Shown in pieces: positions 3,346 to 14,463 of a stretch of 23,463 nt of DNA (the stretch's first letter is position 1; every line of letters starts with the position of its first letter). A program made the position numbers and the translations under genes. Source of the DNA: a virus. Location: the IMG/VR virus record IMGVR_UViG_3300043773_000806, positions 1 through 23,463 of that record, one strand, 5' to 3'. The notes beneath the pieces are model-generated. The model was given only the letters and a program-made list of their open reading frames with translations, ran no database searches and had not been told where the DNA came from.

Positions 3346-3387
3346 CCGTACACCCACAGAGTGCAGACGCGCCGATCTGGATAAGCA

Positions 3388-3415
3388 TTGACCCAGTTGA
3401 CGATGCTCGTAGTCT
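3388..3415 (+). promoter_or_regulatory. Promoter copy 1 (leaderless type), before the methyltransferase
   Basis: TTGACC (3388-3393), 16-base spacer, TAGTCT (3410-3415), then exactly 6 bases to the ATG at 3422. A second TTGAC lies 9 bases after the first (3397-3401). The same arrangement occurs at 4734-4761 and 5593-5620. A sigma-70-type start 6-7 bases after the -10 box would put the mRNA 5' end at or next to the A of the ATG. Confidence 0.7.
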
Positions 3416-3421
3416 CGCGGC

Positions 3422-4267
3422 ATGGAACGGAAGCCGCTGACTTTTGGGTCGCTGTTCGCAGGCATCGGAGGCTTTGACCTCGGCCTCGAACGCGCCGGGA
3501 TGGTTTGCAAATGGCAGGTCGAAATCGACCGTTACGCCAGCAGCGTTTTGGCGAAGCGTTGGCCGAGCACCCCGCGATGGGGCGACGTGCAGACGTTCCC
3601 GCCAGACGATGCCGACGAATGGAATGTCGATCTGATATGTGCCGGCCCGCCGTGCCAGCCGATCAGCCAGGCCGGTCATCGCAAAGGAGCCGACGATGAA
3701 CGATGGATGTGGGGCGAGTGCCTCCGGGTTATTGCGACTCTCAGGCCAAGCCTGTTTGTGGCAGAAAACCCCACCATGCTTCTCCGCAATGATCGAGGCC
3801 GCACGTTCAGCGGAATCCTCGCGGCCCTTGCCACCATCGGGTACGAATCGGAATGGCACGTCATTCCCGCTGCCTCCGTTGGTGCGCCGCACCAGAGAGG
3901 AAGGGTCTTTGTCATGGCCCACGCCCACGAGCAGCGATGGCGGTGGTGCGACGAAGCGGGAGCACTGCAAGGATTGGGAGCATCGGGGGATCAACCTGCC
4001 GGAAGCGGTCCAGAGGGCAGCGGTGGGCGACAAGAGGTGGCCGGGTCCGAAGGGGACGCTGGTCACGTTCGACGACGAAGGAAAGCCGCTCAACGTGTGC
4101 CAGGACTGCCTCGAACCCCACGACTGGACTGGCCCCCTGAACCCGACGTGGGTCGAGTGGCTCATGGGTTTCCCACTAGGGTGGACCGACTTAGATGTCT
4201 CGGAAACGCAGTCGTGCCACAAGTCGCCGAGTTCATCGGCCGCGAAGTGCTCGATCGCATAGCCTGA
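3422..4267 (+). CDS. DNA (cytosine-5) methyltransferase
   Basis: 281 residues. Methylates C5 of cytosine using S-adenosylmethionine. Visible motifs: I, LFAGIGGFDLGLE (11-23); IV, GPPCQPIS with catalytic Cys78; VI, AENP (114-117, usually ENV); VIII, QRGRVF (158-163); X, LGNAVVP (260-266). Order and length fit a compact phage enzyme, probably for self-protection against restriction or for DNA marking. Oddity: between motif VIII and motif X (about residues 166-245) this frame reads as Gly/Arg-rich low-complexity sequence, while the +1 frame over the same bases reads as a conserved-looking protein segment with better codon use. The target-recognition part of the product is therefore uncertain. 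It has its own leaderless-type promoter and no Shine-Dalgarno. Confidence 0.85.
   Translation: MERKPLTFGSLFAGIGGFDLGLERAGMVCKWQVEIDRYASSVLAKRWPSTPRWGDVQTFPPDDADEWNVDLICAGPPCQPISQAGHRKGADDERWMWGECLRVIATLRPSLFVAENPTMLLRNDRGRTFSGILAALATIGYESEWHVIPAASVGAPHQRGRVFVMAHAHEQRWRWCDEAGALQGLGASGDQPAGSGPEGSGGRQEVAGSEGDAGHVRRRRKAAQRVPGLPRTPRLDWPPEPDVGRVAHGFPTRVDRLRCLGNAVVPQVAEFIGREVLDRIA
3915..4262 (+). other. Alternative-frame coding segment inside the methyltransferase
   Basis: In the frame one base ahead of the methyltransferase, an open stretch (its longest ORF opens at ATG 3639 and ends at 4262) reads WPTPTSSDGGG, then a span ending in LNPTWVEWLMGFPLGWTDL and a Ser-rich tail. From memory, WPTPT...D..GG and LNP.WVEWLMGFP.GWT are recurring signatures at the C-terminal side of phage cytosine methylases. 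Third positions in this frame between about 3940 and 4160 are overwhelmingly G/C, unlike the methyltransferase frame there. Either the gene switches frame here, the region codes in both frames, or compensating indels have scrambled the main frame. No ribosome binding site for an independent gene is evident. Confidence 0.5.
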
Positions 4268-4297
4268 ACGACGCTACTCACCGTAGGTGCGGCGGCG

Positions 4298-4338
4298 GAA
4301 TTAGGTAGGATCGCAGAAACTAGGTAATAAACTAGGTA
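4298..4338 (+). repeat. TAGGTA triplet array, copy 1
   Basis: 41-bp direct repeat, partner of 5149-5189 (35 of 41 bases identical by eye). It contains TAGGTA at 4302, 4321 and 4333, i.e. start-to-start spacings of 19 and 12, exactly as in copy 2. It lies in the intergenic region after the methyltransferase. It is probably a binding site array for a phage regulator or replication protein; function inferred. Confidence 0.75.
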
Positions 4339-4351
4339 GTACCGAACACAA

Positions 4352-4425
4352 CCCGCCGTCAGACCGGCCGCACGCCACATGCGGCCAACTGGACGCTTCC
4401 CTCATAGCAAGCGGCTGACGGCGGG
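4352..4425 (+). other. Nested inverted repeat (possible three-way-junction RNA or DNA cruciform)
   Basis: An outer perfect 11-bp inverted repeat (CCCGCCGTCAG at 4352-4362 with CTGACGGCGGG at 4415-4425) encloses two further hairpins: GGCCGCA/TGCGGCC (4366-4372 and 4380-4386, 7 bp, 7-base loop) and CGCTT/AAGCG (4394-4398 and 4409-4413). All three stems can form together. There is no T-run after it, so it is not an ordinary terminator. It lies outside any convincing reading frame, between the TAGGTA array and the 4516 gene. Candidates are a small structured RNA, a leader element, or a protein-binding cruciform. Confidence 0.55.
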
Positions 4426-4488
4426 CAGGGGCGAGACGTACCGCGCCGGGATACAAACCGGAAGGCGACGAGTGGGCCGCCCCAGTGG

Positions 4489-4518
4489 CATTTTCGCAAT
4501 TCGCGAATCTGGAAAATG
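4489..4518 (+). promoter_or_regulatory. Operator-like palindrome over the start of the 4516 gene
   Basis: Arms CATTTTC (4489-4495) and GAAAATG (4512-4518) and a perfect inner palindrome ATTCGCGAAT (4499-4508) share one centre between 4503 and 4504; only the 3-base connectors do not match. The right arm contains the ATG of the 4516 gene and its GGA ribosome contact. This suits a dimeric repressor site or an mRNA hairpin hiding the start. Confidence 0.55.
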
Positions 4519-4737
4519 ACTCTCCCAGCCGAGCGAACCAGCGCCGTGATCCGCACGCAGGAGTTCCTGCTGCGGCTCGCCTCGCCGTACAACGGCGGCA
4601 TCAAGGGGGTGACGAAGCCCGTCCGCGAGGAGGCTAGGCGGCTGCTGCGACACTACCCCCACTGGTTCGACCTCGGCCGTGCCGATGCGTTCGACACCGA
4701 GGCCGCCAGCCGGATCGGCATCCAAGACGAGCGTTGA
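4516..4737 (+). CDS. BPSL0761-like small protein
   Basis: 73 residues from ATG 4516. The pattern ...PAERT.AV....EFL..L......(V)T.PVREEARRLLRHYPHWFDL resembles, from memory, the small BPSL0761 family found in phages and Proteobacteria, whose biochemical function is unknown. Sequence is basic and helical with no membrane segment or metal motif. The start overlaps a 30-bp palindrome, so expression is probably controlled at this point. Its stop codon lies within the -35 box of the promoter for the next gene (TTGACC at 4734), so the two genes are adjacent but separately started. Confidence 0.6.
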   Translation: MTLPAERTSAVIRTQEFLLRLASPYNGGIKGVTKPVREEARRLLRHYPHWFDLGRADAFDTEAASRIGIQDER

Positions 4738-4761
4738 CCTAGTTGACCCAGCGGCTAGGCT
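4734..4761 (+). promoter_or_regulatory. Promoter copy 2 (leaderless type), before the 4768 gene
   Basis: TTGACC (4734-4739), 16-base spacer, TAGGCT (4756-4761), 6 bases to ATG 4768; second TTGAC at 4743-4747, again 9 bases after the first. The geometry is identical to the copies at 3388 and 5593. Confidence 0.7.
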
Positions 4762-4767
4762 GCGGGC

Positions 4768-5079
4768 ATGAGCGACATCGACCTCCTGGCCGACGCCCGC
4801 GAGTGGCTCGCCACCCAGGGCGACCGCGTGCAGACGCATAGCGAGGCATGCCACCGCTGGCACCCTGCCTGTCTCGTCGCGCGGCTCGTCCGCGAGGTAG
4901 AGCGGCTGCGGCTCACCGACGCGGAGTATCTCGCCCTGGCCCAGGCGAGAGACGCCTATGCCGCGAACAGCGACGACGAGGAGTGCGTGGAGATCGCGGT
5001 TGCGATCCGCTCGCTACTGGAACGGAATAGCACGGATCGTATCGGCAAACCGACGAAAACCGTCGAATCGCAGACATGA
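4768..5079 (+). CDS. Hypothetical protein with CH-x2-H-x2-C motif
   Basis: 103 residues, starting 6 bases after a consensus-like -10 box, with no Shine-Dalgarno; the mRNA is probably leaderless. The motif CHRWHPAC (C28, H29, H32, C35) could hold a metal ion and is followed by an amphipathic helix LVARLVREVERLRL. The remainder is acidic and helical, ending in a polar tail. Short phage proteins with a similar Cys/His segment before an EVERLR helix are familiar to me but have no assigned function. I cannot name a role. It sits between two regulatory blocks, the promoter just upstream and the inverted repeat and TAGGTA array just downstream. Confidence 0.6.
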   Translation: MSDIDLLADAREWLATQGDRVQTHSEACHRWHPACLVARLVREVERLRLTDAEYLALAQARDAYAANSDDEECVEIAVAIRSLLERNSTDRIGKPTKTVESQT

Positions 5080-5089
5080 TTCGGTAAGA

Positions 5090-5115
5090 AAAACATATCA
5101 CTTTTGATACGTTTT
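5090..5115 (+). promoter_or_regulatory. AT-rich inverted repeat, operator-like
   Basis: AAAAC (5090-5094) and TATCA (5096-5100) pair with TGATA (5105-5109) and GTTTT (5111-5115), with one mismatch and a CTTT centre. It is AT-rich against a GC-rich background and lies between the stop at 5079 and the second TAGGTA array. No T-run follows, so a protein binding site is likelier than a terminator. Confidence 0.45.
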
Positions 5116-5148
5116 GCGACTCAACACGCCGCAGAGAGGGACGCGGCT

Positions 5149-5189
5149 GAATTAGGTAATGTCGCCGGAACTAGGTAATAAATTAGGTA
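5149..5189 (+). repeat. TAGGTA triplet array, copy 2
   Basis: Second 41-bp copy, with TAGGTA at 5153, 5172 and 5184 (spacings 19 and 12, as in copy 1). It ends 30 bases before the likely start at 5219. An in-frame ATG at 5159 lies inside the array, which argues against that ATG as the gene start. Confidence 0.75.
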
Positions 5190-5218
5190 AGACGCTACTG
5201 AAATCAGGGAGAGACGCG

Positions 5219-5425
5219 ATGGAAGCCATGACAGATCGGCAGAAAAACATTGTTGAATGGGCGATGGAAAAGGATCGGCTCGCTACTCTCCGCGACGAGT
5301 TCGCGGCGGCAGCGTTGGCCGGGCTGACTCACCCAGAAGATTGCCAAGCCGGGCCGCTGCGGATGGAGTTGGTTTGCAAGATGGCATTCGCCTGGGCTGA
5401 TGCCATGCTGGCGGCTCGCCGCTGA
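5219..5425 (+). CDS. Small phage protein, function unknown
   Basis: 68 residues from ATG 5219. I chose this start because GGGAG lies just upstream (5207-5211) at a suitable distance, while the longer frame from ATG 5159 begins inside the TAGGTA array. Sequence: a helical charged N-terminus (TDRQKNIVEWAMEKDRLATL), then RDEFAAAALAGLTHPEDC and a C-terminal MAFAWADAMLAARR. The last segment resembles a very common class of small phage proteins ending AxxxADAMLxAR, which are of unknown function and often found in early or accessory regions. No metal motif or membrane segment is seen. The TAGGTA array 30 bases upstream may control it. Confidence 0.6.
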   Translation: MEAMTDRQKNIVEWAMEKDRLATLRDEFAAAALAGLTHPEDCQAGPLRMELVCKMAFAWADAMLAARR

Positions 5426-5592
5426 ATTGCACTACTGAGCGAAAGTGCGGACACATGATTGACGAGATGGCCGGTTCGATGCTGCCATCACTGTTGCTGA
5501 GGGCGCTGGTGGCGCTGTGGCGTGAACAGCCGACAGGGCTGGCGGCAAACTTGCGGCAGGGGCATCACCACGGTCACGCTTCTGAACGAGCG

Positions 5593-5620
5593 TTGACCCC
5601 GTTGACGGGTCGCATAGGCT
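5593..5620 (+). promoter_or_regulatory. Promoter copy 3 (leaderless type), before the XF1762-like gene
   Basis: TTGACC (5593-5598), 16-base spacer, TAGGCT (5615-5620), 6 bases to ATG 5627; second TTGAC at 5602-5606. Together with the -10 box, the six bases before the ATG (CGCGGC) match copy 1 exactly and copy 2 closely. Confidence 0.7.
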
Positions 5621-5626
5621 CGCGGC

Positions 5627-6085
5627 ATGAAGCCGTCGCAGCCGAAACTGAGCGTCGTTCCCTGCCACTTGGACGAGGCGAAAGCGTTCGTTGCCCAGCA
5701 CCATCGGCACCACAAGCCGCCGGTCGGCCATAAGTTTTCGCTGGCGGTTGCGGATGAGGACGGCAAAGTGCGGGCCGTGTGCATTGTCGGTCGCCCGGTG
5801 GCTCGGATGCTGGATGACGGCATGACGCTGGAACTCACGCGGCTGGCGAGCGACGGATGCCCTAATGCCTGCTCCTGCCTCTACGGGGCCGCCTGGAGGG
5901 CTGCGAAGGCTCTCGGCTACGGCAGGCTCATCACATACATCTTGGATGACGAACCGGGCGTGACGCTCAAGGCGGCTGGCTGGAAGTGCCTTGGTCAGAG
6001 AGGCGGCGGCAGCTGGTCGGTGCCAAGCCGGCCGCGAGTCGATAAGCATCCGCTCCAGAAGAAGTTGTTGTGGGAAGCAGGCTGA
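5627..6085 (+). CDS. XF1762-like protein (GNAT-type fold)
   Basis: 152 residues, first codon 6 bases after the -10 box. Recognised by the chain: LDEAKAFV..HHRHHKPPVGHKFSLAV near the N-terminus, then VCIVGRPVAR, TLELTRLASDGCPNACSCLYGAAWRAAKALGY, and ITYILDDEPGVTLKAAGWK..G..GGGSW. This order (strand, acceptor loop, helix, strand, AGW) is typical of GNAT-like acyltransferases and of the XF1762 family found in phages and prophages. The substrate is unknown. Possible roles include modifying a host protein or countering a defence system, which is inference. It shares its promoter type with the methyltransferase and the 4768 gene, implying joint control. Confidence 0.7.
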   Translation: MKPSQPKLSVVPCHLDEAKAFVAQHHRHHKPPVGHKFSLAVADEDGKVRAVCIVGRPVARMLDDGMTLELTRLASDGCPNACSCLYGAAWRAAKALGYGRLITYILDDEPGVTLKAAGWKCLGQRGGGSWSVPSRPRVDKHPLQKKLLWEAG

Positions 6086-6172: not shown

Positions 6173-6529
6173 ATGGCCGACGCCACAATCAGCCGCCGTT
6201 ACCGCGACTTCGACATTGTTCTGCACACGGCCACCTCCCTGGCCACCACGCTCGACGTGCGAGACGTGGCGGGTGCCATCGTGTCTTTCGGCACCATGAA
6301 CACCAACACCAGCACGCTGCAGATGTTCGTGAGCCCCACCCGTGCCGGGTCGTTCTCTCGCCTCTACAAGGCTGATGGCAGCATTGCAGCCCTCACCCTC
6401 GCCCCCTCGAGCACCGAGGCCCGCTCCTTCAGCCTGCCCGATGAGGTGTTCGCTGCCGAGTTCCTCAAGATCGTCAGCGTTACCACCAACAGCACTGGCA
6501 CCGTTGGCGTGGTGATGTTCAAGAGCTAG
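6173..6529 (+). CDS. Hypothetical, probably virion-associated protein
   Basis: 118 residues from ATG 6173, with a good Shine-Dalgarno (AGGAG in CAGGAGACC) 7 bases upstream, unlike the leaderless genes before it. Composition is rich in Thr/Ser/Val/Ala with alternating hydrophobic residues, suggesting a beta-sandwich; segments include DFDIVLHTATSLATTLDVRD, VSFGTMNTNTSTLQMFVSP and ARSFSLPDEVF. There is no signal peptide or membrane helix. Small all-beta proteins of this kind in phages are often head decoration or tail proteins, but I do not recognise the family. It stands alone between the accessory region and the packaging genes, so it may be the first gene of the structural operon. Confidence 0.55.
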   Translation: MADATISRRYRDFDIVLHTATSLATTLDVRDVAGAIVSFGTMNTNTSTLQMFVSPTRAGSFSRLYKADGSIAALTLAPSSTEARSFSLPDEVFAAEFLKIVSVTTNSTGTVGVVMFKS

Positions 6530-9035: not shown

Positions 9036-10336
9036 GCGAAAACGCCGCCGCCGATTACAAGATGTTCGACCTGCGTGGCATCGACTGGCCCGAGGTTTCG
9101 CCGTCTCGCACGCCTTCGGGCATCCGCGTCAACGCCGACAACTCGATGGCGTGCTCTGCCTACACGGCCTGCATTCGGGTCATATCGGATGCGGTATCAG
9201 CCCTGCCGCTGCATGTGTTCGAGCGGATGGCGAACGGCGGCAAGCAGAAGGCCACTAGCCACCCCGTGTATCGGCTCCTGCACCAACAGCCCAACCCGTG
9301 GCAGACGGCTCAAGAGTTTCGGGATTGGATGACCGGCATGTACCTGCACTACGGTGCGAGCTACGCCGAGATCCGCCCAGGTGCTCGAGGTGCCGTCTCA
9401 GAGTTGTGGCCCCTGCACAGCAGCCGCATGGAAGTCGAGCGGCTGGAAGACGGCACGCTGCGGTATCGCTACAGGGAGCCAAGCGGCCGGCAGACGATCT
9501 ACAGCCAGGAGCAGATCTTCGCCCTGCGGTTCACGACCGAAGACGGCATCAAGGCGATCCCGACCTACAAGATTTTCCAGAACGCCATCGGCCTGGCCCA
9601 GGCGTTGGAGGCCCACGGGTCCACCTATTTCGGCAACGGTGCCCGGCCCGGCATTGTGCTGGAGTCGGAGAACCCCATTCCGGCCGAGGCCGCCGAGCGA
9701 CTCCGCGAGCAGTGGGAGCGGATGCACCGTGGTGCAGATCGGGCGTTCCGAACGGCGGTCCTGCCGAACGGGGTGAAGGCCCACGAGCTCAGCGGCAGCA
9801 ACGAGGCGGCGCAGTTCCTGGAGACTCGGCAGTACCAGGTCATCGAGATCTGCCGGGCCTTCCGCGTGCCACCGCACATGATCCAAGACCTGACCCGGTC
9901 GACCTACTCGAACATCGAGGTGCAGGGCACGGAGTTCGTGCAGCACTGCCTGCTGCCGCACCTAAAGCGGTGGGAGGCCGCCATCAGCCGCGACCTCATC
10001 GTGGATGATGAGACCTTCTTCGCTGAACACTCGGTGAGCGGCCTGCTGCGTGGCGACCACGCGAGCCGGTCGGCCTACTACGTCTCGGCCCTGCAGAACG
10101 GGTGGATGACCATTAACGAGATCCGTGAGCTTGAGAACCTCAACCCGATCGGGCCGGAAGGTGACAAGCACTTTGTGCAGCTGAACATGACCACGCTGGA
10201 CAAGGTGGGCCAGGATCCGCCTGCCCCGGAGCCGATGCCCGAGCCGCCAGCCGAGGAAGAGGACACGCCTGAAGACGACGCCGAGGACCAGGCCGAGGAC
10301 GCGGCCGAACAGGAGGAGCAGACCGATGGAAATTGA
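9032..10336 (+). CDS. Portal protein, HK97 family
   Basis: 434 residues from ATG 9032 (ATGA overlap with terL; the frame is open further upstream, but that part is only a shadow of terL). Typical segments: SMACSAYTACIRVISDAVSALPLHVFER, HPVYRLLHQQPNPWQTAQEFRDWM, LHYGASYAEI, and near residue 280 RAFRVPPHMI followed by a stretch ending in the EVQGTEFVQHCLLPHLKRWE stem region. The C-terminal ~55 residues are Pro/Glu/Asp-rich and probably flexible. The dodecameric portal forms the vertex through which DNA enters and to which the connectors bind. It overlaps the protease gene by 11 bases. Confidence 0.92.
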   Translation: MSENAAADYKMFDLRGIDWPEVSPSRTPSGIRVNADNSMACSAYTACIRVISDAVSALPLHVFERMANGGKQKATSHPVYRLLHQQPNPWQTAQEFRDWMTGMYLHYGASYAEIRPGARGAVSELWPLHSSRMEVERLEDGTLRYRYREPSGRQTIYSQEQIFALRFTTEDGIKAIPTYKIFQNAIGLAQALEAHGSTYFGNGARPGIVLESENPIPAEAAERLREQWERMHRGADRAFRTAVLPNGVKAHELSGSNEAAQFLETRQYQVIEICRAFRVPPHMIQDLTRSTYSNIEVQGTEFVQHCLLPHLKRWEAAISRDLIVDDETFFAEHSVSGLLRGDHASRSAYYVSALQNGWMTINEIRELENLNPIGPEGDKHFVQLNMTTLDKVGQDPPAPEPMPEPPAEEEDTPEDDAEDQAEDAAEQEEQTDGN

Positions 10337-11209: not shown

Positions 11210-12529
11210 ATGGACAATCTGAAGAAGCTTCAGGACGAGGCCGTTACCCTCGCCAACCGGATCGACGCCGTGCGGGCGATCGAGGGCGACGAAGACAAGG
11301 TCGCCGAGCGTGACCTGGAGCTCGAGACGCTGAACAAGCGGGCCGGCGATCTGGCCAAGAAGATCGACTTCGAGAAGTCGGTGGTCGAGTCGGCCAAGAA
11401 CCTGCGGTCGGTGGTTGAGCGTTGCTCGCCGGCTCCCGAGGTGAAGGAAGAGCGGAGCGAAAAGGTCCGCGTCGAGGCGGTTCCGTTCTCGGGCCGGCTC
11501 CGTGCGTTCGAGAACGCAAAGGACGCCTACCAGGTCGGCATGTGGTTCAAGGCCAAGGGCGGTGACGCCGAGGCCAAGCGGTGGTGCCAGGACCACGGCG
11601 TCGAGGCTCGTGCCCAGGGTTCGACCGGTTCCACGACCGGTGCGGCCTTCGTGCCCGACGTTCTGTCCTCGACCGTGATCCGGCTCGTGGACCAGTATTC
11701 GGCCTTCGCTCAGAACGCCACCAACGTGGTGATGCCGAGCGACGTGCTGCTGTTCCCGCGTCGGACTGCCGGTGCGACCGCGTACTGGATCGACGAGAAC
11801 TCGGCCATCACTGCCAGCGACCCGACCTCCAATCAGGTCACGCTGACGGCGAAGAAGGTGACCGGGGCGGTGGTCATCGCGTCGGAGCTCCTGCAGGACT
11901 CCATCGTGTCGATCGCCGACTGGATCGCTGCCGAGCTCGCCCTGACGCTCAGCAACGCCGTTGAGGCGGCTGCGTGGAGCGGCAACCCGAGCAACGCCCC
12001 TGCCGTGGCCGGTCTTGTCACGACCCACACGGGCGGCCTGCTGGCTGCGTCTGCTGCCACCTACGCCGCCTCGCTGGTGACGGCTGCCGGTGACACGCCC
12101 GACGAGGTGACGAAGGCCAACCTCCTGGCGATGATGGCCAGGGTTCCGCAGCACTCGCGCCAGGGTGCCAAGTGGTTCTGCTCGCCGTTCTTCTTCGCCA
12201 CCTGCATGCAGAACCTCGACCTCGCCCAGGGCGGGTCGGTCGGTCTGTCGCAGGGCATGGGTCCGACGTTCCTCGGCTCGGAGGTGGTCCTGACTGACCG
12301 GCTCCCGAGCGGTGCGGACTCGACGGGTGCCATCATGGCCCTCTACGGGAACATGGCGAACTCGAGCTACTACGGCATCCGCCAGGCCCTCGAGATCGCG
12401 TCGAGCGATCAGGTCAACTTCCTGTCGGATCAGACGGTGATCCGTGCGGTGGCTCGCGTGGCGATCACGCACGCGAACCTGGGAAGCGACACCGTCGCCG
12501 GCCCGATGATCGGCCTCGTGGGTGCGTGA
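11210..12529 (+). CDS. Major capsid protein, HK97 fold
   Basis: 439 residues from ATG 11210, chosen over GTG 11168 because a GGAG lies upstream (11195-11198) and MDNLKKLQDEAVTLANRIDAV is the usual beginning. Residues 1 to about 85 form a charged coiled coil, the delta/scaffold domain that the S78 protease should remove. The mature part shows family landmarks: GAAFVPDVLSSTVIRLVDQYS, VLLFPRRTAGATAYWIDENSAI, QVTLTAKKVTGAVVIASELLQDS, an AELALTLSNAVEAAAWSG region, and a late QVNFLSDQTVIRAVARVAI. It builds the icosahedral shell. A strong terminator follows, which limits transcription past this highly expressed gene. Confidence 0.93.
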   Translation: MDNLKKLQDEAVTLANRIDAVRAIEGDEDKVAERDLELETLNKRAGDLAKKIDFEKSVVESAKNLRSVVERCSPAPEVKEERSEKVRVEAVPFSGRLRAFENAKDAYQVGMWFKAKGGDAEAKRWCQDHGVEARAQGSTGSTTGAAFVPDVLSSTVIRLVDQYSAFAQNATNVVMPSDVLLFPRRTAGATAYWIDENSAITASDPTSNQVTLTAKKVTGAVVIASELLQDSIVSIADWIAAELALTLSNAVEAAAWSGNPSNAPAVAGLVTTHTGGLLAASAATYAASLVTAAGDTPDEVTKANLLAMMARVPQHSRQGAKWFCSPFFFATCMQNLDLAQGGSVGLSQGMGPTFLGSEVVLTDRLPSGADSTGAIMALYGNMANSSYYGIRQALEIASSDQVNFLSDQTVIRAVARVAITHANLGSDTVAGPMIGLVGA

Positions 12530-14149: not shown

Positions 14150-14463
14150 TCGATCCCGGCAAGCTCCGCGAGCGTGTAACGGTCCAGATCGCCAGCGGCA
14201 CGACCAATACGCTTGGCGAGACGGTGCTGTCGTGGAGCAACTCTTCTGCCGTCTGGGCCAGCGTCGAAGGCGTATCGGCCCGCGAGGCCCTAGAGGCTGG
14301 GCAGGAGGACACGACGATCACGCACCGCGTGCGGCTGCGATATCTGCCGGGCCTGACGCAGCGTGACCGCTTCGCGTGGCGCAGCAGGACGCTGAACATC
14401 GTCAGCCTGCTCGAGTACGGCAACCGCAGCGAACACGTCGCCATTTGCGAAGAGGTGACGTGA
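14146..14463 (+). CDS. Head-tail adaptor / head closure protein
   Basis: 105 residues from ATG 14146 (ATGA overlap). The opening MIDPGKLRERVTVQ and the middle VWASVEGVSAREALEAGQ followed by THRVRLRYLPGLTQRDRFAWRSRTLNI match the SPP1 gp16-type head-tail adaptor family (Phage_H_T_join). These small all-beta proteins close the DNA channel under the connector and bind the tail. Length is normal. The frame is also open for 15 bases upstream (GTG near 14131), but the overlapping ATG is the better start. Confidence 0.85.
   Translation: MIDPGKLRERVTVQIASGTTNTLGETVLSWSNSSAVWASVEGVSAREALEAGQEDTTITHRVRLRYLPGLTQRDRFAWRSRTLNIVSLLEYGNRSEHVAICEEVT

Follow-up and report, generated by a model that had tools for sequence, protein, structure and literature searches.

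The classic leaderless message of a phage is that of lambda cI expressed from PRM, where the transcript begins at the AUG, and the sites of the CII-type activators of lambda are formed by TTGC-N6-TTGC around the -35 position.

Among bacteria, the TA-led leaderless genes carry TANNNT, a sequence that resembles the sigma70 -10 box, about 12 bp before the start codon and have no Shine-Dalgarno sequence (PMC3160421). The SAS and ESAS of cluster K mycobacteriophages are short repeats located close to the ATG, at a fixed distance, in front of many unrelated non-structural genes, and are almost absent from the host genomes; the SAS is a GGGATAGGAGCCC-like sequence of 13 bp with AGGAG, 3-9 bp ahead of the start codon, which has the look of a ribosome site, the ESAS is a 17-bp inverted repeat, and the consensus of the upstream part differs by subcluster (PMC3203893, PMC11373665). 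A signal for translation was the first proposal for these start-associated sequences, and in Adephagia a -35/-10 promoter has been drawn within an ESAS (PMC3203893, PMC11373665).

Here we analyze a stretch of 23,463 nt (hereafter the window), a 23.5-kb IMG/VR virus record that encodes a terminase and capsid genes and in which three genes are preceded by copies of one element. Comparison with related phages suggests that this element is best read as a leaderless promoter cassette that is particular to the lineage and probably under a phage-specific regulator.

Three copies of a putative promoter in the window

The pattern TTGACC-N16-TAGNCT-N6-ATG matches the window exactly at 3388-3424, 4734-4770 and 5593-5629, all on the plus strand, compared to 4e-5 sites expected under a first-order Markov model of the window with both strands counted; when the second TTGAC is added to the pattern, the expectation under the Markov model is 3.5e-8. 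The TTGAC-N4-TTGAC doublet is found in the window only at the three promoter copies (0.037 expected). The earlier note had described three copies with fixed TTGACC/16/TAG(T/G)CT/6/ATG spacing and a second TTGAC, and these matches agree with that description exactly. The copies (delimited so as to include the five bases directly 5' of TTGACC, which are GAGCG in copies 2 and 3 and AAGCA in copy 1), the genes behind them and two adjacent conserved features are the following:

3349..3376, plus strand: conserved intergenic stretch TACACCCACAGAGTGCAGACGCG, upstream of copy 1
3383..3415, plus strand: promoter copy 1, AAGCA, TTGACCCAGTTGAC, N8 and TAGTCT, exact match (-35 box 3388-3393; second TTGAC 3397-3401; -10 box 3410-3415)
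3422..4267, plus strand: C5 DNA methyltransferase (PF00145, E 3e-50; phrog_363, E 6.2e-73), ATG 6 nt past the -10 box
4516..4737, plus strand: conserved 73-aa ORF, TGA stop inside the -35 box (TTGACC) of copy 2
4729..4761, plus strand: promoter copy 2, GAGCG, TTGACCTAGTTGAC, N8 and TAGGCT, exact match (-35 box 4734-4739; second TTGAC 4743-4747; -10 box 4756-4761)
4768..5079, plus strand: 103-aa CHxxHxxC protein, ATG 6 nt past the -10 box
5588..5620, plus strand: promoter copy 3, GAGCG, TTGACCCCGTTGAC, N8 and TAGGCT, exact match (-35 box 5593-5598; second TTGAC 5602-5606; -10 box 5615-5620)
5627..6085, plus strand: Mom-like DNA modification protein (phrog_1384, E 2.5e-37), ATG 6 nt past the -10 box

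The product of the 5627-6085 gene, previously described as an XF1762 protein, belongs to PHROG 1384, a family of Mom-like DNA modification proteins, and has relatives in phages of Mycobacterium, Microbacterium, Streptomyces and Synechococcus; no family match was found for the 103-aa protein in profile searches. The three cassettes sit between conserved genes and the terminase, where the relatives are strongly divergent in the genes that they carry. Homologues of the 73-aa ORF that are 81-90% identical occupy the same place in three related records (L006, L007, L032), and the TACACCCACAGAGTGCAGACGCG stretch recurs in four (L006, L007, L008, L208), with a different methyltransferase behind it in L006 and L007.

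Two other repeats were observed in the same part of the window. Two near-identical triplets of (T/C)TAGGTA (4298-4345 and 5150-5192), with identical internal spacing (0, 19, 31), lie in the gaps that precede the small ORFs at 4516 and 5219; a cluster of this kind was not found in those related loci that were searched. Another start-proximal repeat, ACACGCCGCAGAGAGGGACGCG, which often ends at an ATG and contains the Shine-Dalgarno-like GAGAGGGA, is present at 5124-5145 of the window and in L008, L013, L020, L036, L045, L190, L448 and L472, and resembles a start-associated sequence of the leadered type in these phages.

The promoter type of the window (class A) shows the canonical sigma70 layout, namely a TTGACA-like -35 box, a 16-18 bp spacer and a TANNNT -10 box, in the form of TTGACC, 16 bp and TAGNCT. 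A scan with the consensus of E. coli called no promoter here because TAGGCT agrees with TATAAT at only three of the six positions, and such a scan says little about a -10 box as GC-rich as this one. No Shine-Dalgarno match was found before the 3422 gene, and the sole candidate for 16S rRNA pairing before the 4768 and 5627 genes is the AGG inside the -10 box itself, so that the claim that all three genes lack a Shine-Dalgarno sequence holds fully for the first gene and with this qualification for the other two. The accompanying claim that structural genes possess such sequences is correct: matches of 4-7 bases precede other genes of the window, several of them structural (AGGAG at 6173, AGGAGG at 10326, AGGAG at 11210 and GAGGTGA at 14463).

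The element resembles the described systems in part. As in the TA-led genes, the T of TANNNT is at -12 before all three ATGs (and also in the relatives), and there is no Shine-Dalgarno sequence apart from the AGG that belongs to the -10 box in copies 2 and 3; however, the TA-led genes are a genome-wide host feature (PMC3160421), whereas the phage cassette is repeated and carries an upstream element that is fixed. Like the cluster K SAS/ESAS, the element is repeated near the ATG of unrelated genes and differs in its upstream part between subgroups, but it has no Shine-Dalgarno sequence, its repeat is direct with a 9-bp spacing, and only 6 nt separate its -10 box from the ATG. Neither a GGGATAGGAGCCC-like AGGAG sequence nor 17-bp inverted repeats were found upstream of the three ATGs, the repeat being the direct TTGAC-N4-TTGAC; given the absence of AGGAG and inverted repeats, the phage element is a variant that stands beside the cluster K SAS/ESAS rather than a member of that group. 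With lambda cI the element has in common the predicted start at the AUG, but cI is one regulated gene, whereas here the promoter is repeated and the genes behind it are interchangeable. Similarly to the CII-type sites, there is a direct repeat with a period of about one helical turn around the -35 position, although in this case it is TTGAC-N4-TTGAC with a 9-bp period.

Conservation of the geometry in related phages

A search with the terminase as the query yielded 390 related stretches in viral contigs, and the best 80 of the 390 were kept; judging from the kind of metagenomes, the phage group seems to come from lake water. The search of related phages for the pattern, which had been suggested as a check, detected the TTGACC-type unit in five further contigs at the first scan, always with the ATG at 6 nt and with the 71-aa gene or other methyltransferases behind it. 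The site of copy 1 also precedes other methyltransferases in L006, L007, L032 and L362, and the site of copy 2 precedes the 71-aa gene in L005, L006, L032 and L111.

When ATG-started frames were counted in the window and 86 related records, TAGNCT was located 6 nt before the ATG at 19 distinct starts and at any other spacing at 0-4. To avoid circularity, the spacing was also analyzed at sites that were chosen by the upstream half, RAGCRTTGACCNNNTTGAC, alone. Among the matches listed, which comprise 101 distinct sites including the window's own three copies, TANNNT lies exactly 8 bases past the second TTGAC in 21 sites and at any other spacing in at most 3, TAGNCT is found 17 times at N8 and 0 times at other spacings, and in 17 of the 21 TANNNT-N8 sites the ATG follows exactly 6 bases further, before unrelated genes; these counts are neither complete nor independent, since many of the sites share descent, and independence is better judged by how many unrelated genes follow the element. 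A loose scan of viral contigs for the doublet was used only through a context filter, the matches listed being mostly chance occurrences in unrelated viruses.

The fixed spacing within a single genome could result in part from recent duplication. Loss of the spacing in close relatives, which the earlier note had named as evidence that would count against its claim, was looked for, and the spacing was found to be kept, which lends that claim strong comparative support; as judged by comparison with the relatives, both the geometry and the constraint on it are evident. In class A, the second repeat is more tolerant than the first (TTGCC in L032 and L362), which makes the first TTGACC the likely -35 box.

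The conserved part spans about -39 to -7. An alternative to a promoter is that the upstream element is a translation signal, which the ribosome or an RNA-binding protein would recognize in the mRNA, with transcription starting further upstream. Such a signal would be compatible with the constant distance to the ATG and with the AGG within the TAGGCT of copies 2 and 3. However, the -10 variants (TAGGCT, TAGTCT, TACGTT, TAAGAT, TAATCT, TAGATT, TACAAT) retain T, A and T, as in a -10 box, also where AGG is absent (TAGTCT, TACGTT, TAAGAT, TAATCT), and conservation reaches about -39, with the 16-bp spacing between the -35 and -10 boxes. Moreover, L007/L008 and L362 keep the element although no ATG lies at N6, as do two cases where the next gene has its own Shine-Dalgarno sequence (L190/L420, with GGAG before the start, and L052, with AAAGGA). 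Because a promoter kept without the N6 ATG precedes a gene with a Shine-Dalgarno sequence, we favor a promoter over a ribosome site; the latter was rejected as the main explanation on the strength of the -10 variants without AGG and these Shine-Dalgarno genes, and a translation signal appears quite improbable. The comparison thus backs the view of the element as a promoter with a predicted transcription start at the ATG.

Proposed promoter classes

Further upstream elements with the same -10/N6/ATG end are present in relatives and define the following classes:

Class A': upstream element TAGACCAATTTGAC
Class D: upstream element TAGACTCGCTGGAC
Class B: GGGGCATTTC, then TGGAC 4-5 bases on
Class C: GGCTGCAAG-N5-TGGAC, before an HNH gene

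All classes share the core T(T/G)GAC-N8-TANNNT-N6-ATG. Only in class A is TTGACC a consensus-like -35 box; classes B and C have no TTGACA-like -35 box and depart from the canonical sigma70 layout. A methyltransferase 96% identical to that of the window is found under class B in L049, and Mom genes are found under class B in L040, class A' in L073 and class D in L268. All records with at least two clear copies are of a single class (six A and three D), with no A/D mixture, and a reversed-pattern control over whole records gave 0 matches. Given that classes B and C occur together within a phage, in L049 and in L060, the rule of one class per phage is limited to the A and D groups, where the comparison shows class fidelity.

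In G435 and G436, a 300-aa gene is preceded by the arrangement CCCCCTGCGG...TCGAC-N8-TACCCT-N6-ATG, and G441 has one that is similar. The loci concerned are L456:3960-4859 (minus strand), L458 and L468/L469; this leaderless-looking start is possibly a fifth promoter class.

Exchange of genes at the start codon

Six records compared over the methyltransferase slot show 62-89% identity over -45..-1 and 20-44% identity from +3 on. Because the upstream 45 bases are alike and similarity is at background just after the ATG, the comparison shows that coding sequences are exchanged at the ATG. The occupants of the element include C5 methyltransferases of the phrog_363 and phrog_116 types, an N6/N4 methyltransferase and a phrog_757 methyltransferase, and those of the other promoter classes include Mom-like proteins and a phrog_4848 protein; DNA-modification genes are the majority of the recognisable occupants. 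The putative regulon of methyltransferase, CHxxHxxC and XF1762 genes is accordingly too narrow for the element, given that the promoter belongs to the resident phage and is followed by genes that change. A homologue of the 103-aa gene follows the 71-aa gene in L005 and L111 and overlaps the stop of the latter; the 103-aa gene of the window stands directly on the promoter that elsewhere drives the 71-aa gene followed by this homologue.

Boundary sequences of lambdoid phages allow gene exchange, and the element might likewise have been kept mainly as a homology patch for recombination, with its promoter look being secondary. The abrupt change in coding sequence just past the ATG, behind similar upstream sequence, would be expected in this case, and in the window the 103-aa gene could have been joined to the promoter through short common GGCATGA-like stretches. 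A homology patch does not readily account for the variation of the N8 and N6 bases at constant spacing and box positions, nor for the -10/ATG geometry that is shared by classes with unlike upstream sequence. As the main role, recombination is therefore highly doubtful, but it is compatible with the promoter reading, and both can apply at once.

Host and candidate regulators

The first TTGACC of class A, a near-consensus -35 box with a 16-bp spacer, and the tolerance of TTGCC in the second repeat of L032 and L362 would also fit an ordinary constitutive host-type promoter that travels with horizontally acquired (moron-like) genes, in which the second TTGAC has no role. However, the full class A pattern has 0 matches among the genomes of 84,980 species of bacteria and archaea, 392 genomes from one candidate phylum, which has distant terminase relatives, show no enrichment of the core T(T/G)GAC-N8-TAGGCT-N6-ATG (4 forward versus 6 control matches), and the promoter class tracks the phage, not the gene. 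A host promoter was rejected on the first two of these results, and we consider this origin unlikely. The terminase did not point to a host: its matches in MAGs of mixed phyla and in phage-like loci in the genomes of one phylum are only about 50% identical.

Small proteins that consist of a bare LexA DNA-binding domain, with no peptidase domain, are encoded in phages of classes A, A' and D, with a divergent member in the class A record L184. They were found at L457:14677-14907 (minus strand) and in L458, L460, L466, L184, L081 and L472, and have diverged in the recognition helix. As candidates for the regulator, they occur in several promoter classes and are not cleanly matched to class.

Proposed mechanism and implications

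We propose that each site is an autonomous sigma70-type promoter of the phage lineage, consisting of the TTGACC -35 box, a 16-bp spacer, a GC-rich TANNNT -10 box, N6 and the ATG. From this layout, RNA polymerase would be expected to start at, or within one base of, the A of the ATG, and we infer that the resulting mRNA would be leaderless and translated as such. The second TTGAC (about -25 to -21) and the bases immediately 5' of the -35 box probably form the site for a phage-specific regulator, either an activator or a repressor, because relatives keep the -10/N6/ATG end and carry a different upstream element that is uniform per phage in the A and D groups. The unit would serve as an expression socket behind which accessory genes, many of them for DNA modification (anti-restriction), are swapped with the junction at the ATG, incoming genes falling under the promoter class of the resident phage. 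Judged on the sequence comparisons, this combination of an autonomous leaderless phage promoter, a probable regulator site and swappable genes is likely. Against it weigh the negative E. coli consensus scan, the possible share of recent duplication in the fixed spacing, the missing TTGACA-like -35 box and the co-occurrence of classes B and C, and the persistence of the promoter in L007/L008 and L362, where N6 is not followed by an ATG. More speculatively, it is possible that each sublineage has a private promoter class, made up of an upstream element and its own activator or sigma-like factor, on a constant leaderless -10/N6/ATG end; genes captured at the ATG would come under phage control at once, and the unit would be a plug-in slot for anti-restriction genes.

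If this proposal is right, it would explain how these phages swap DNA-modification genes without loss of control, given that the promoter stays in place and no ribosome site is needed, and the element would clearly exemplify a family of phage promoters designed to give leaderless messages. The sublineage-specific upstream elements would then provide a direct route to the cognate regulator.
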